In this document: piece by piece, positions 12,077 through 22,168 of the stretch | Layout: each line of letters begins with the position of its first letter | How positions within the stretch are numbered: position 1 is the first letter of the stretch | NCBI GenBank assembly: GCA_913043025.1 | Contig: CAJWLM010000012.1 | Location: 1-64,000 of the forward strand | Source of the DNA: an uncultured Rhodospirillaceae bacterium | GTDB taxonomy: Bacteria; Pseudomonadota; Alphaproteobacteria; UBA8366 | DNA: 64,000 nucleotides | Reading direction: 5' to 3' | Translations under genes and position numbers: made by a program | The notes under the pieces: generated by a model | Database searches by the model: none | Told to the model about the DNA's origin: nothing | Seen by the model: only the letters and a program-made list of their open reading frames with translations

Positions 12077-15000
12077 ATGGCAGCTAATGTGACCAAACTT
12101 CGCCGGGCGGATGAAATCGAATCGGGCCCTAGTCTCGCTAATTTGCGACAAGAGGCACAAAGAACAGAACGTCAAGCGAAATTGATGCTCCGAGTTGGAG
12201 CCGGGCTCAGTGGGGTCTGGGCTACAACTTGCCTGTTTTATGTGCACGAGCACTTAGGGTGGGACTTTGCTCAACAACTTTTGCCTCATGAAATGGGCAT
12301 GCTGTTTGCCGGGTTTGCTTTGCCGATAGCCATGCTTTGGGCCGGGATTTCGTCTTTTCGTAGGGCTCATGATGTTCGCTTTCATACTGAAATGTTGCGC
12401 CGGCATCTTGATCTTCTGGGTTACCCTGCTGAAGAATATGAGGGACGTGTCACTACAGTTTCCGATCTTCTGAAAAAACAGGCTGAGGAATTGACACAAG
12501 TAAGTGAACACGCGACGCAGCATCTATCTAAATTAGTGGCGGCGATGGAATCTCAAACGATCGGATTGGGTCAGGCCAGCGATAAGGCTGCAGCCGAAGC
12601 GCACCTTATGCGCGACCGATTAATGATTGATGTTGAAACACTGCAAGATTTAGTCAAGAAAATTGACCAACAGCGAAGTAAAGTTGAGTCTACCGTGTCT
12701 GGCCAAGCCGAAGCCCTTGGGCGCGTTACCCAAGAAGCTCTGGAGCATTCTGATCATATAAACGCTGCGTTAAGAATTCAGGCGGCTGATTTGAGTGGTG
12801 TATCAGATAGGGCAGCCGAACAAGCAAAAAGTCTTGGTGTTTTGTTTGAGCAATACTCCGAAGATCTGCAGGTGGCTAGCCGCAATGCAGAGCAGCAAGC
12901 AGCCGACACGGGAAAACACCTTTCTGAAAGTGCGGAGGATCTCAAGCTTGTTGCGGAAAAGGTTGGGACACGTGCCGCCTCAGTGGCGAGCGGGCTTCAT
13001 GAGGAAATTGGTCATATGGCTGAAAAATTGAGGTCTTCTCTGGAGGAGCAATCTGATGCTGTCGGTGCAATGACTGACCGTACTGGCGAACGGATTGAGC
13101 GAATGGCAGCGGGATTAGCGCGGCAGGCCACGGATGCTACTGGTCATCTTGAGCTTGCGCTTGAAAAACAGTTTAAGGCTGTGGATCATGTTTTGACTAC
13201 TGCTGAATATCGAATGGATGAACTTACAAACCAAGTGGACCAGCAAGTAACGCTCCTCAGTCAGGGGTTGAGAGAATCAATAAATCACAATGCTGGGCAA
13301 ATTGGCGTTACAGTAGATAACGCAAAAGAACAGATTGGCCGTCTCACTTTCGTTATTAACGAACAGTCCCAGAACCTTGCAAATGTAACGGAAAAGTCGA
13401 GCGTTGAAACTGAAAACATGATTGACGCGTTAAAAGCGCAGGCTAGTGATCTGTCAGAAACAGCAGAGCACATAGCTCAGCAGACACAGGTAGTACAAGA
13501 CACGGTGAATCAGCAATCTGAGCAACTAAATAAAGCATCTGATCAGACGGCCGAACGAATTCAAGCGCTCGGTGCTATGTTCCAAGAACAAACTCGATCA
13601 TTAGGACAAGCAACCGATCTTGCCGTGGATCGCGCAGACGCTCTGCGATCTGCACTCGATCGTCAGGCACAAGATCTGCGGGGAGCGTCCGATCATGCTG
13701 CGTCACAAGCCAGAGAGATCGAGGCACTTTTGCAGGCAAAGGCTTCGGAGATTACAGTTGCCGTTAAAGGTAGTGTCAGTGAGATCGGTGAAGCTCTCGG
13801 GCCGTCTGTAACAGAAGCGCAAATGATGGCCGGGACTTTGACACAACAGGCAGCTAATTTGCGCGACGCGGCAGACAGGTCTGCAGCCCAAGCGAGCTCC
13901 ATAGCTGAATTGATGCGCCAAAGAGGGGTTGAACTGAACGAAGCATCCGATCATGTAACAGGAAAAGTAAAAGAAATTCGAGATGCGCTTAATGAAAATA
14001 CGACCGACCTCAATCAAGCGGCCACACACGTTGGCGAGCGTGCCAGTGAGGTCAAAGCTTCGCTGGCCAATGACAGTCGATATTTGTCCGATCTAGCCAA
14101 CTTCTTGCATGAAAGGTCCCAGCAGATTGATACGCAAATCCAGCATCATGCTGAGACTTTAAAACATTCATCACTGCAAGCTTCAGAACAAGCCGATGAA
14201 ATATCGGGTGTCTTGCAGCGTCAGGTTGCCCATTTGCTTGAGGCAGCCGGTACTGTGGCCGAAACCCTCCATGAGGCTGGTCAAAATTTCGACAAAGAAA
14301 CCGCATCAGTGAATACTGCCCTCGTCGAGGGGTTGAGGTTAATGAATGATGCAGGTGAGCATTTTAATGCTCAAACTGAGCGGCTCACTTCAGCTTCATT
14401 GCAAGCGGGCATGCAAATTAATGACAATAATGAGGCTCTCCAAAACGAAACCAAAGAGATCATGCGGGCATCCAAAGAAGCGACAGAGCGGATGCAGCTT
14501 GTGGGTGAAGTTTTTACGGAGCAAATAACAAATTTGTATGGGTCAACCGATCAATTATCTTCCCGTATGGCGACTTTAACCGAAGGGCTCCGTCAACAGG
14601 CTCGCGACATTGGTGAAGCAGGTGACGAGGCGAGTGTCCGCGTTCGTGAGGTCGGCGAAATGCTTGGAAGTCAAACCCAATCGTTGGTGCAGGCGACAGG
14701 TGATGCGCGCCTTGAGATAGACGCTTTAACTGAAAGAGTTGACAATCATAGAAGCAACCTTTTGGAGACTACCGACGCCGTAGTTTTAAAAACATCTGAA
14801 GCAAGCACACATTTTGATCAACATGCTGCAATTCTTACCAAAGCTGCTGCTTCTGCTGCCGATCAAGCAGAAAAACTAAAAGAGCTTGATCTCTCAGGTC
14901 GAAGAAATCTTTTTTTAAAAACGGCTCGCTTCATTATCGAAGACTTGCATTCAACGGCCGTTGACCTCATTAGAATTCTGCGATCAGAGGTGCCAAACGC

Positions 15001-15286
15001 TGATTGGAAGCGCTATGTGAAGGGCGATCGAGGAATATTTACCCGAAAGTTACTTGGTGAAAAGCCTTCTGCAACCGTTTCATTGATAGCTCAGAAGGTT
15101 CAACGAGAAGAGGAAATGCGCCGTTATGTAATGCGCTATTTTGATCACTTTGAAACATTACTGCGAGAGGCAGAAGATGTTGATCCAGAACACCTCTTGC
15201 ATTCGACATTTATGACTGCCGATGTTGGCAAACTCTATCTACTGCTTTGTAGGGCATTGGGCAGGGATGTAATGTACGACAAATAA
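12077..15286 (+). CDS. Membrane-anchored coiled-coil rod protein with 29 25-residue repeats (TipN/GPR-like architecture)
   Basis: A 1069-residue protein. Residues 1-39 are charged and cytoplasmic. Two hydrophobic helices follow at about 40-56 and 73-94. A rod made of 25-residue units then runs from 142 to 922, with consensus A-S-D-x-A-A-x-x-A-x-x-L-x-x-x-L-x-x-Q-A-x-x-L-x-x. A globular, repeat-free domain covers 923-1069 (WKRYVKGDRGIFTRKLL, then MRRYVMRYFDHFETLL). Of 29 units, 25 are exactly 25 residues; three are 40 (15+25) and one is 36 (11+25). Two N-terminal membrane helices plus a long coiled coil recall the alphaproteobacterial polarity factors TipN and GPR; homology is inference. It is transcribed divergently from suf. 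The ATG at 12077 is chosen over the in-frame TTG at 12071. Confidence 0.85.
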   Translation: MAANVTKLRRADEIESGPSLANLRQEAQRTERQAKLMLRVGAGLSGVWATTCLFYVHEHLGWDFAQQLLPHEMGMLFAGFALPIAMLWAGISSFRRAHDVRFHTEMLRRHLDLLGYPAEEYEGRVTTVSDLLKKQAEELTQVSEHATQHLSKLVAAMESQTIGLGQASDKAAAEAHLMRDRLMIDVETLQDLVKKIDQQRSKVESTVSGQAEALGRVTQEALEHSDHINAALRIQAADLSGVSDRAAEQAKSLGVLFEQYSEDLQVASRNAEQQAADTGKHLSESAEDLKLVAEKVGTRAASVASGLHEEIGHMAEKLRSSLEEQSDAVGAMTDRTGERIERMAAGLARQATDATGHLELALEKQFKAVDHVLTTAEYRMDELTNQVDQQVTLLSQGLRESINHNAGQIGVTVDNAKEQIGRLTFVINEQSQNLANVTEKSSVETENMIDALKAQASDLSETAEHIAQQTQVVQDTVNQQSEQLNKASDQTAERIQALGAMFQEQTRSLGQATDLAVDRADALRSALDRQAQDLRGASDHAASQAREIEALLQAKASEITVAVKGSVSEIGEALGPSVTEAQMMAGTLTQQAANLRDAADRSAAQASSIAELMRQRGVELNEASDHVTGKVKEIRDALNENTTDLNQAATHVGERASEVKASLANDSRYLSDLANFLHERSQQIDTQIQHHAETLKHSSLQASEQADEISGVLQRQVAHLLEAAGTVAETLHEAGQNFDKETASVNTALVEGLRLMNDAGEHFNAQTERLTSASLQAGMQINDNNEALQNETKEIMRASKEATERMQLVGEVFTEQITNLYGSTDQLSSRMATLTEGLRQQARDIGEAGDEASVRVREVGEMLGSQTQSLVQATGDARLEIDALTERVDNHRSNLLETTDAVVLKTSEASTHFDQHAAILTKAAASAADQAEKLKELDLSGRRNLFLKTARFIIEDLHSTAVDLIRILRSEVPNADWKRYVKGDRGIFTRKLLGEKPSATVSLIAQKVQREEEMRRYVMRYFDHFETLLREAEDVDPEHLLHSTFMTADVGKLYLLLCRALGRDVMYDK
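12500..14842 (+). repeat. Tandem 75-bp-period (25-residue) protein repeat array
   Basis: Within the rod protein gene, the translated sequence keeps a 25-residue period through 29 units. The only register changes are insertions of 15, 15, 15 and 11 residues, placed at the front of units beginning near 12950, 13145, 13265 and 13760. Nucleotide copies are well diverged, so this is an old protein repeat rather than a recent DNA expansion. Confidence 0.85.
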
Positions 15287-17361: not shown

Positions 17362-18333
17362 ATGCTTTATGAAGGAGTGATTTCAGGCAATAGGCGGGCA
17401 TTGGCCCAAGCAATCACGTTACTAGAGTCTACTAACCCCGATCACGAAACAGCGGCATCCGAGCTCTTGACCAAGCTAACACCCCACTCCGGCAAGTCGA
17501 TGCGTATTGGCATATCAGGAGCGCCAGGAGCCGGAAAATCGACTTTTATCGAAAGCTTGGGGCTTCATGTACTTGCACGAGAACATAAGCTGGCTGTTTT
17601 AGCCGTTGATCCTACTTCAAAGCGGAGTGGAGGCTCCATCCTTGGTGATAAGACACGTATGGAGGAACTATCAAGACACGATAATGCTTTTGTGCGACCA
17701 TCGCCAGCCGCAGGAGCGCTTGGTGGAATTGGTAATCGTAGCCGCGAGGCATTGGTAGCTTGTGAGGCTGCTGGGTTTGATGTGATTTTCATTGAGACAG
17801 TAGGAGTAGGCCAGTCAGAGACTGCTGTTGCAGATATGACCGATCTTTTTTTACTACTTCTGTCACCGGCCGGAGGGGATGAGTTGCAAGGCATGAAAAA
17901 GGGTATCGTTGAAATTGCGGATATCGTGCTTGTCAACAAGGCTGACGGAGATTTCGAAAAAGCTGCAAGCATTGCTGCTTCCGACTATGAAAGTGCGATT
18001 AGGATGCTGCGCCCAAATTCAAATAATTGGCAGGTGCCAGTCCTCACTTGTTCCGCTTTAAGTAATACTGGTATCGATGAGGTGTGGGAAGCTGCGGAAA
18101 AATGGCGAAGTGTGATGACGGCAGATGGCACTTTCGCGCAGGTCCGACAAAATCAAGCGGGAATTTGGCTCTGGGATTCCATTCGTGAACGGTTTGAACG
18201 CGAACTTCGTTCTGATTTGGACACTGGTAATGAGCTGAATATGTTAGGTTCTAAGGTTGCTAACGGGGAAATGACGGCGCCTAACGCGGCCTCAGCCTTG
18301 ATCCGTCGCTTTCGTAAAGGAAAACCAACTTGA
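17362..18333 (+). CDS. meaB: MeaB/ArgK-type GTPase chaperone of methylmalonyl-CoA mutase
   Basis: A 323-residue G3E-family P-loop GTPase. The P-loop is GAPGAGKST (residues 53-61); the family blocks DPTSKRSGGSILGDKTRME and ETVGVGQSE follow, and VNKADGD is the base-recognition NKxD motif. Family knowledge: it protects methylmalonyl-CoA mutase and gates adenosylcobalamin loading. The mutase gene lies 2.7 kb away on the opposite strand, which supports the assignment. AGAGGTG precedes the ATG. Confidence 0.96.
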   Translation: MLYEGVISGNRRALAQAITLLESTNPDHETAASELLTKLTPHSGKSMRIGISGAPGAGKSTFIESLGLHVLAREHKLAVLAVDPTSKRSGGSILGDKTRMEELSRHDNAFVRPSPAAGALGGIGNRSREALVACEAAGFDVIFIETVGVGQSETAVADMTDLFLLLLSPAGGDELQGMKKGIVEIADIVLVNKADGDFEKAASIAASDYESAIRMLRPNSNNWQVPVLTCSALSNTGIDEVWEAAEKWRSVMTADGTFAQVRQNQAGIWLWDSIRERFERELRSDLDTGNELNMLGSKVANGEMTAPNAASALIRRFRKGKPT

Positions 18334-20011: not shown

Positions 20012-22168
20012 TTAATTTCTGGTCTTAATTAGTTTTAGAATTTCTGCTGCTGCAGAGGGAATGTTTGTTCCTGGTCCGAAAATCGCTGCAGCGCCTGCCT
20101 TGTATAAGAAATCATAATCTTGAGGAGGAATGACACCACCGCAAATCACTAGAATGTCGTCCCCCCCAGTTTTTCGAAGGGTTTTGATCAGCTGAGGCAC
20201 CAGTGTTTTGTGGCCAGCAGCTTGTGAAGATACACCAATTATATGAACATCATTTTCAATTGCCTGACGGGCAGCTTCCTCAGGAGTCTGAAACAGCGGA
20301 CCTACATCTACATCAAAACCAATATCTGCGAAGGCGGTAGCTATCACTTTAGCTCCTCGGTCATGCCCATCTTGGCCCATTTTAATCATTAATATTCGGG
20401 GGCGACGTCCTTCACTAGTTTCAAAAGTTTCAATCTGGGACTGTATCTTTGCAAAGTTTTTATCGCCAGCGTAAGCAGAACCGTAAACACCGGAGATCGA
20501 ACGCACAGCGGCGCGGTGACGAGAAAAAACTTTTTCACAGGCATGAGAAATTTCACCAACCGTAGCTCGTGCACGCGCAGCTTCAATTGCTGAGGCGAGG
20601 AGATTGCCCTTTTTGCTTTTTGCCGTTTGTGTAAGTTTTTCGAGCGCAGTCTGGCAGGCATTATTATCGCGATCTGTACGAACACGCTCCAGACGCTTTA
20701 TTTGCGAATCTCGGACTGTCGTATCATCAACATCTAATAACTCGACGGGATCCTTTCGGTCGGGTTTGTATTTGTTCACTCCAACAATTACCTCCTCACC
20801 GCGATCAATCCGAGCTTGGCGCGCTGCAGCTGCCTCTTCAATACGTAGTTTGGGCATGCCGGCCTCAATCGCTCTTGTCATTCCGCCCAACTCCTCAACT
20901 TCTTCGATCAATTTACGTGCGTGTGAGGCCACACTGGCCGTTAATGCTTCGACATAATAACTCCCGGCCAGTGGATCTATTACTTTAGTTATTCCCGTTT
21001 CCTCCTGTAAAACCAGCTGGGTATTGCGCGCAATTCTAGATGAAAATTCGCTCGGCAATGCCATCGCCTCATCAAAGCTATTGGTGTGAAGAGACTGAGT
21101 TCCGCCAAGTGCGCCGGCCATTGCCTCAATAGTTGTGCGGATAATATTATTGTAAGGATCCTGTTCGGTAAGGGTCACACCGGATGTTTGGCAATGAGTT
21201 CGGAGCATCAACGATTGTTCGGTTTTAGGTTGGAAATATTTCTGCATTTGTTCTGCCCAAAGTAACCGTGCTGCACGAAGTTTAGCAATTTCCATAAAAA
21301 AGTTCATTCCAAGACAAAAAAAGAAAGAAAGCCGCGGCGCAAACGTATCTACTTCCAGTCCTTTTTTTATAGCCGCGCGCACGTACTCTATTCCATCTGC
21401 GATTGTAAAAGCTAACTCTTGCACACACGTTGCTCCCGCCTCTTGCATATGATATCCAGAAATGGAGACGGAGTTGAAACGCGGCATGGTGTTTGAGGTA
21501 TATTCAATTATATCGGCAACTATCTGCATAGATGGGGCTGGTGGATAGATGTATGTGTTCCGGACCATAAACTCTTTCAAAATATCGTTTTGAATAGTTC
21601 CAGATAGCTGTGCTGGTGCAATGCCCTGCTCCTCTCCGGCGACGATAAAATTAGCAAGTACGGGAAGTACTGCGCCATTCATCGTCATTGAAACGCTCAT
21701 CTTCTCAAGTGGAATACCATCAAAGAGGATTTTCATGTCCTCAACTGAGTCAATTGCAACACCTGCTTTTCCGACATCGCCAACGACCCGTGGATGATCG
21801 GAGTCGTAGCCACGGTGAGTAGCGAGATCAAATGCTATAGATAAACCCATTTGTCCTGCAGCAAGACATTTCCGATAAAACTGATTTGAGTCTTCGGCCG
21901 TAGAAAAGCCTGCATACTGGCGAATTGTCCAAGGCTTTCCTGTATACATGGTAGCCCTAGGGCCCCGTATGAATGGTGGAATTCCAGGCATTGAATTTAG
22001 GTGATCGAGTGAATCAAGGTCTGCTGCTGTGTAAAGAGATTTGATTGGCACACCTTCGGGGGTAGCCCAGCTAAATGCCTCTGTTGCACCGTCGCCCAAT
22101 TCTTTTTGAGCGCGGTTTTCCCAATCGTCTTTTCCGTAACTCTTAAATGTATCACTAGATTTAATCAT
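20012..22168 (-). CDS. scpA: Methylmalonyl-CoA mutase (single-chain, B12-dependent)
   Basis: A 718-residue mutase interconverting (R)-methylmalonyl-CoA and succinyl-CoA. The N-terminal TIM barrel carries the substrate region [21 protein letters not shown]. The C-terminal cobalamin domain has the DxHxxG motif as DGHDRG near residue 598, with [16 protein letters not shown] and [11 protein letters not shown] following. The length matches the large catalytic subunit, which acts alone in many alphaproteobacteria; no small-subunit partner is adjacent. It converges on tgt with a 10-base gap. The symbol is also written mutB or mcmA. Confidence 0.97.

Follow-up and report, generated by a model that had tools for sequence, protein, structure and literature searches.

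The window, that is, the whole 64,000-nucleotide stretch that was analyzed (contig CAJWLM010000012.1 of an uncultured Rhodospirillaceae bacterium), carries on its forward strand the gene of a long rod protein. As read from the sequence, the protein contains an N-terminal membrane segment, approximately 830 residues of coiled-coil units of 25 or 40 residues, and a conserved C-terminal domain. The features of the gene were as follows:

12077..15286, + strand: rod protein gene; one open reading frame with its ATG at 12077 and its stop codon ending at 15286, encoding a membrane-anchored protein of 1069 amino acids
12182..12247, + strand: probable membrane helix 1, residues 36-57, placed from its position and a low-confidence model helix at residues 20-60
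12293..12358, + strand: membrane helix 2, residues 73-94, with 19-residue hydropathy up to 1.85 and a model helix at residues 70-97
12377..12451, + strand: juxtamembrane segment, residues 101-125, with a mean conservation of 0.75, the highest of any 25-residue window excluding the C-terminal domain
12419..12943, + strand: first 25-residue block, residues 115-289, 7 units by segmentation; lags 75, 50 and 25 lead
12944..13303, + strand: three 40-residue units, residues 290-409; lag 40 leads, and the length changes here by whole units in L092-L094
13304..13753, + strand: second 25-residue block, residues 410-559, 6 units by segmentation and lag analysis
13754..13786, + strand: 11-residue extra stretch, residues 560-570, by segmentation
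13787..14911, + strand: third 25-residue block, residues 571-945, 15 units by segmentation and lags; the original prediction stopped counting at residue 920
13802..13804, + strand: proline P576, conserved, the sole proline in the rod of the window protein
14894..15268, + strand: C-terminal domain, residues 940-1064 (approximately 125 residues), all-helical in a model of intermediate confidence, with no Pfam family above cut-off

The first membrane helix was weakly hydrophobic and fell below the hydropathy threshold of 1.4. The rod protein was the single match in its own genome. Upstream, on the other strand, lie genes for SufB and an Rrf2 regulator, and downstream those for LysE, Lrp/AsnC, a GNAT acetyltransferase and MeaB. 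The MeaB and methylmalonyl-CoA mutase genes (window positions 17362-18333 and 20012-22168) are close together downstream of the rod gene. The GNAT acetyltransferase gene was found near 18 of 38 order loci and the MeaB gene near 9 of 38 (flanks mostly of 1.5 kb), and no functional link of these two neighbours to the rod gene was seen. Among the 14 largest neighbour clusters (open reading frames of at least 90 amino acids, flanks of approximately 5 kb), none was conserved class-wide. Promoter-like sites were fewer than in shuffled sequence (2 versus 3.7), and terminator-like sites were about one standard deviation more frequent (6 versus 3.8).

The original prediction had described the rod as 29 tandem units, and this count was reproduced: residues 140-920 comprise 25 units of 25 residues, three of 40 and one of 36, or 781 residues in total, and an independent segmentation by dynamic programming on a 27-sequence alignment agreed. 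The set of units was also the same, although the earlier register began two residues later (position 12500 corresponds to residue 142). The segmentation score was 556, compared with 93 ± 6 in the null of 40 column shuffles (maximum 107). Over its full extent, the segmentation yielded 31 units from residue 115 to residue 945, and the extra residues within 140-920 fell into stretches of 15 (315-329), 30 (355-384) and 11 (560-570). The 25-residue period was confirmed by repeat detection over residues 131-950, where identity at lag 25 was 16.6% compared with 8.0% in shuffles (z 9.6); lags 50 and 75 were as strong (z 9.3). The consensus of the 25-residue unit was ..Asd.Aa.qa..i.eaL..Qa..L, and in our reading of the segmentation positions 3, 7, 11, 14, 18, 21/22 and 25 of each unit form seven core layers. 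The units of the window protein shared a mean identity of 17% with one another, and TRF detected no tandem repeat at the DNA level.

The three 40-residue units had been counted correctly in the original prediction; the refinement is that they are contiguous (residues 290-409) and have a period of their own. In this block, lag 40 was on top (z 5.4 in the window protein and 9.5 in the alignment) and lag 25 was weaker (z 2.2 and 4.2, respectively). Conversely, lag 40 was absent from residues 115-289 and 410-930, where the leading lags were 25 or multiples of it. The hydrophobic layers, 230 in all, followed one another at intervals of 3 or 4 residues (mean 3.576 residues per layer) and ran unbroken through the extra stretches; core hydropathy was 2.47 compared with 1.31 in shuffles and remained at 2.2-2.9 inside the extras of 15, 30 and 11 residues. 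A repeat of 25 residues over seven turns gives 3.571 residues per turn and a weakly left-handed coil, and 40 residues over eleven turns give 3.636 and a near-straight one, so that the 40-residue block is the near-straight part of the rod. The rod contained almost no aromatic side chains (F 1.2%, Y 0.5%, W absent) and was net acidic (-55). Its charges had a 25-residue period of 0.23 on the alignment (null standard deviation 0.035), and the filament stagger predicted from them showed no strong parallel optimum.

A single continuous helix of 115 nm, which the original prediction had considered, is disfavoured by these sequences. P576, directly after the 11-residue extra stretch, was kept in 38 of the 39 sequences that cover it (26 of the 27 aligned sequences, L029 being the exception; all six of L092-L097, at the matching place; and all six partial relatives that reach it), suggesting that the helix is broken or kinked there. 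Because the only proline of the rod is conserved, we consider two stiff segments with a joint more likely than an unbroken helix. A second proline, at residue 868, was present in 5 of the 27 sequences. The full-length structure model, built from a three-sequence alignment, had a mean pLDDT of 45.8 and is usable for secondary structure only. The model of the C-terminal domain (pLDDT 64.3) was all-helical; a Foldseek search with it returned nothing at E ≤ 0.001, and weak helical-bundle hits were disregarded. L031, with 31 unknown residues, was excluded from structure modelling.

Rod length was then compared among relatives from the same order. The protein was matched in 42 of the 43 genomes of the order sample and in 50 of all 59 genomes searched, the own genome being included in both counts; the named relatives were Rhodospirillaceae MAGs. 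The 42 order matches comprised 27 full-length aligned sequences, six that were added, and nine cut by contig ends or truncated, all of which were examined separately; L016, L017 and L030 were excluded from the 27-sequence alignment, and L031-L033 appear by identity to be duplicates of L003-L005. Rod length was exactly equal in 27 of the 34 near-full-length members, and exact length persisted down to 30% identity. Among the 26 full-length relatives (30-93% identity), the sole indel in residues 26-1062 was one residue after position 997 in L023, outside the rod. The distance from proline 117 of the juxtamembrane motif to tryptophan 977 of the C-terminal domain was 860 residues in the window protein and in 26 of 26 relatives, and thus in 27 of the 33 order members measured; in the six divergent members it was 889 (L095-L097), 1060 (L093 and L094) and 1220 (L092). 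In the seven partial relatives that reach the rod, the stretches covered were free of rod indels. Among the nine cut or truncated matches, L165 had several rod indels and lacked about its last 50 residues, and the other eight had none within the portions they cover; L170 covers no rod, and L017 differed by 4 residues where its N-terminus is cut.

The exceptions among the 34 members were insertions of 29 residues (three members), 200 (two) and 360 (one), together with one genome that carried four changes. The insertion of 29 followed residue 647 (L095-L097). The insertions of 200 and 360 followed residue 314, within the 40-residue block, and equal five and nine extra 40-residue units; the copy number of this unit was therefore three in the window protein, eight in L093 and L094, and twelve in L092. 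The enlarged blocks of L092-L094 retained the 40-residue period (lag-40 z 8.2-9.8, with lag 80 slightly higher in L092), and the remainder of these rods retained lag 25. In L165 (genome G021, family f4), the rod differed from that of the window protein by -33, +11, +29 and -11 residues, and the changes of -33, +11 and -11 recurred in the comparison with its relative L095, to which it is 59% identical and with which it shares the insertion of 29. Eleven residues make three turns of a hendecad; the changes in L165 keep the helix phase, yet the lock on length is not absolute. A 2-residue deletion ahead of the rod was also among the length changes in the order. The strong selection on register proposed in the original prediction is thus supported, in that the units hold their length and the helix its phase, but total length is not absolutely fixed (7 of 34 exceptions). 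Residue-exact length after approximately two thirds of the letters had changed suggests that evolution preserves packing and length.

Orthologous units were 27-61% identical, compared with 17-18% between different units. In a relative of 63% identity, all 29 units were closest to their own counterpart, and in relatives at approximately 30-37% identity only 7-11 of the 29 were. We read this array as probably old and free of recent turnover except in the 40-residue block, the low-identity form of the comparison being low in power.

Two control proteins from the same genomes were used to judge how unusual this conservation is. Counted over all pairs, indel events per 1000 aligned residues numbered 0.23 for the rod (22 sequences with a mean identity of 41%), 1.93 for SMC (22 sequences, 58%) and 4.41 for a DEAD/Helicase_C_2 helicase (18 sequences, 63%), so that the lengths of SMC and the helicase changed 8 and 19 times faster than that of the rod. 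The control set did not contain L165 or L092-L097; G040 was excluded from the SMC and rod sets, and the helicase set was without G006, G022 and G040 (partial), G028 (stop) and G030 (no match). These rates bear on the explanation that coiled coils in general tolerate phase-shifting indels poorly and that the exact length reflects nothing more, with no spacing function. Evidence for it comes from SMC, which had at most one indel event in each of the 11 relatives outside family f3; since SMC is near-locked there, some of the length constraint is shared by coiled coils at large, the rod being held to it more tightly. The differences in rod length between families and the changes of L165 by multiples of 11 at several sites are also in its favour. 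The rod, however, accumulated approximately eight times fewer events than SMC despite its lower identity, and in 10 of 10 f3 genomes (L155-L164), in which SMC exceeded that of the sister families in the order by 66-112 residues in a few large jumps, the rod was unchanged. The SMC arms of four genomes had top lags of 7, 14 or 77, with lag-25 z of -0.6 to 2.9. We regard general intolerance as a serious contender that nevertheless falls short of an even chance. A further possibility is a quantized ruler, in which fixed 25-residue units and an adjustable 40-residue block would set the distance from the envelope to a C-terminal organizing domain at alphaproteobacterial poles, and the 22-residue 'apolipoprotein' rod of GPR would be derived from this coiled-coil ruler. 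The indels of L165 weigh this idea down and general intolerance up, and we consider the ruler somewhat unlikely.

A profile of the C-terminal domain matched 106 of 289 alphaproteobacterial genomes, the own genome included; the open frames that carry it span 266-2752 codons, and the family thus occurs in more than one third of the genomes sampled. In Pfam, nothing over the domain exceeded the cut-off, PNMA (17.6 of 25 bits) being the only match, and NCBIfam and Pfam scans of the domain and of the f16 proteins likewise gave nothing above cut-offs. The class-wide comparison covered 63 loci: the window, two named records, six members of the order and 54 of the 109 C-terminal matches. The top lag was 25, 50 or 75 in 44 of these loci, at least one such locus occurred in 32 of the 42 family labels, and lag-25 z was at least 3 in 61 of 63. 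Among the other 19 loci, the top lags were 22 for RgsE, 22 and 44 for f74, 47 twice for f41, 29 and 11 for f7, and 11 and 29 for f8; 18, 18 and 11 for f16, 11 and 69 for f71 (25 in a third f71 locus), and 58 for f116 (50 in the other); and 14 for f64 and f126, 18 for f120, and 11 for f109. The unit profile of the window's order fitted 48 contiguous units in L087, 37 in L062, 36 in L083, and 26 in L056 and L057, with scores of 337-812 in L087, L062 and L083 compared with 50-55 for the reversed profile and below 5 for permuted profiles; hardly any unit fitted on the f16 rods (scores 9-17).

Total length was variable across the class and inside f71, f86, f97, f108 and f116, and pairs were equal in f18, f41 and f45. 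Since it differs between and inside families, no universal distance is kept. The idea that rod lengths differ between families in steps of 25 was rejected, as the lengths modulo 25 looked spread. With a reliable N anchor, 23 of 48 rods were proline-free, the longest having 1922 residues. The proline-free rods of L089, L070, L060, L087 and L071 (1637-1922 residues) would measure approximately 243-285 nm as single helices, a sizeable part of cell width. Co-occurrence with PopZ was weak (92 of 106 genomes versus 141 of 183, p 0.046, uncorrected for phylogeny). MreB offered no contrast, since all 289 genomes matched it, some only at 1e-7 to 1e-17; the match was only 1e-14 to 1e-16 in three f74 genomes (G112, G230 and G323).

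The C-terminal domain identified the closest described relatives of the window protein. It was 37% identical over 116 amino acids (E 1e-11; profile 5.4e-30) to the product of a Sinorhizobium meliloti gene of 2089 codons, which is the published length of RgsE. On the strength of this length and the C-terminal match, we judge from sequence comparison that the window protein is a homologue of RgsE and, by the published homology of the two, of GPR. The N-terminal profile matched RgsE only at 4.9e-5; in the window protein the second membrane helix was clear and the first weak by hydropathy, and both had counterparts in the low-confidence model. In the available text, GPR and RgsE each have two membrane helices at the N-terminus, together with a long helical rod; the window protein has an N-terminal membrane segment and a long, presumably cytoplasmic rod, which was helical in the model and had sub-threshold apolipoprotein- and SMC-like matches, as in the GPR/RgsE family. 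The differences are that the window protein is half the size (1069 versus 2089 and 2115 amino acids for RgsE and GPR), that its units are of 25 residues whereas the top lags of RgsE are 22 and 11, and that RgsE has a proline-rich stretch ahead of the C-terminal domain, which the window protein lacks. In addition, the window's genome has MreB (1.2e-150), unlike the Rhizobiales, which the literature available to us describes as lacking it; the homologue is therefore not tied to a growth mode without MreB. Distant homologues in Rhodospirillales were already known from the RgsE paper. Our literature search found no experimental work on any family member whose rod is built of 25-residue units, and for length conservation in coiled coils it gave a single, unrelated paper. 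A 3.7-Mb PLSDB record named 'pSymB' (CP090106.1) carries an rgsE-length gene, petA and other chromosomal-looking genes, and is probably mislabelled.

In the available text of one study, GPR formed a 200-nm ring of six foci approximately 100 nm from the growing tip, and deletion of the C-terminal 221 residues of the Agrobacterium tumefaciens protein abolished its function (PMC8262873). Deletion of 332 C-terminal residues left more function than the 221-residue deletion, and paired foci still formed (PMC8262873), so that the end domain is dispensable for ring assembly in GPR.

Three other identities were weighed against these comparisons. The GPR papers, as far as their available text goes, classify GPR as apolipoprotein-like, and the rod of the window protein could accordingly be an amphipathic surface lying on membrane lipid. 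PF01442 did match it at 2e-9, although the 37.9 bits are below the curated cut-off of 90 and the same model matched in 7 of 14 control genomes, never above that cut-off; bacterial 'apolipoprotein' annotations deserve caution in general. Apolipoproteins typically have a period of 11 or 22 residues, whereas the dominant lags here were 25, 50 and 75, the hydrophobic layers formed a core spaced by 3 and 4, aromatic residues were few, and SMC and ZorA models matched as well, at 25 bits each and below their cut-offs. We consider a lipid-lying rod improbable. The 22 and 11 lags of RgsE would attract PF01442, and, judging from these periods, the label of RgsE and GPR may be an artefact of coiled-coil periodicity; GPR may still bind lipid.

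ZorA is anchored in the membrane and has a long helical tail in the cytoplasm, and a relationship to it would cast the rod as such a tail in a proton-driven motor. At E ≤ 0.01, the PDB gave a single sequence match, 8vvn_C, a MotA/TolQ/ExbB-type protein that we take to be ZorA (residues 353-721, E 0.0024), and RgsE matched the ZorA_1 model at 1.5e-19 (69.8 of 190 bits). The window protein itself, however, reached 25.2 of 190 bits, below the curated cut-off and in the coil alone, Pfam found no MotA/TolQ/ExbB domain, and the matched tail had top lags of 22 and 11, with 25 in fifth place (z 3.4). The likeness is therefore one of weak coil-level similarity, with differences in motor domain and period, and a motor tail is highly improbable. 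The SMC model was similar in this respect (25.4 of 567 bits, missing its cut-off), and a true SMC is encoded elsewhere in the genome. An orthologue of Caulobacter TipN would instead mark the new pole for flagellum or chromosome partners rather than growth. TipN is a coiled-coil landmark protein that the available literature calls similar or analogous to GPR; f16 frames with the C-terminal domain have 786, 879 and 884 codons (761, 863 and 874 from the first Met), close to the 882 amino acids stated for TipN in the available text, and the window's genome has PopZ (E 4.7e-22). Against this, the f16 rods were almost without the 25-residue unit, and the N-terminal profile failed to match f16. The suggested relation comes from literature wording and f16 frame lengths, and we hold it to be unlikely.

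Taken with the length conservation, the homology leads us to favour, at a probability of roughly 60%, an inner-membrane-anchored cytoplasmic scaffold homologous to GPR/RgsE, in which rods lie in register and packing, perhaps with spacing, is the function. The rods would come together in register, with a parallel coiled coil as the most likely form, and would extend into the cytoplasm or along the membrane. Each would hold its C-terminal domain up to approximately 120 nm of helix from the membrane attachment (831 residues at 0.1485 nm give a maximum of about 123 nm), with a kink at P576; a 25-residue unit contributes approximately 3.7 nm and a 40-residue unit approximately 5.9 nm. The C-terminal domain may be a partner-binding site that gathers partners at the pole or growth zone. 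This function would explain why register and length are conserved; length changes mostly by indels that keep phase (40, 29 or multiples of 11). In design, with no claim of homology, the rod resembles that of myosin II, which has a fixed-length charge repeat of 28 residues with skip residues in the available text (PMC2204051); the rod described here has units of 25 and 40 residues, a net acidic charge and no strong parallel stagger. GPR and RgsE organize polar growth in Rhizobiales and have hitherto been read as apolipoproteins. In the window protein this family has a simpler layout, in which a coiled coil of exact 25-residue units joins the membrane anchor to a C-terminal domain that is so far uncatalogued. 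Near-exact length across divergence, combined with growth of the 40-residue block by whole units, makes the question of a ruler testable through whole-unit changes.

Two recurring neighbours were observed near rod genes elsewhere in the class. In a cluster of eight loci with seven family labels, a small gene for an Hpt phosphotransfer domain sits upstream of the rod gene in divergent orientation; it is absent from the window. It was located at L044:2102-2470, at L045:3652-3945 and in the upstream flanks of L048, L050, L051, L052, L072, L085 and L086, with the Hpt annotation obtained in L044 and L045, and it is possible that this gene links a phosphorelay to the scaffold. Downstream of the rod gene, on the opposite strand, L047, L048, L051, L052, L065, L072, L085 and L086 carry a lipid-transport-like ABC operon, whose genes for an ABC ATPase, a permease, an MCE-like protein and a lipoprotein-like protein were judged by eye from their translations.
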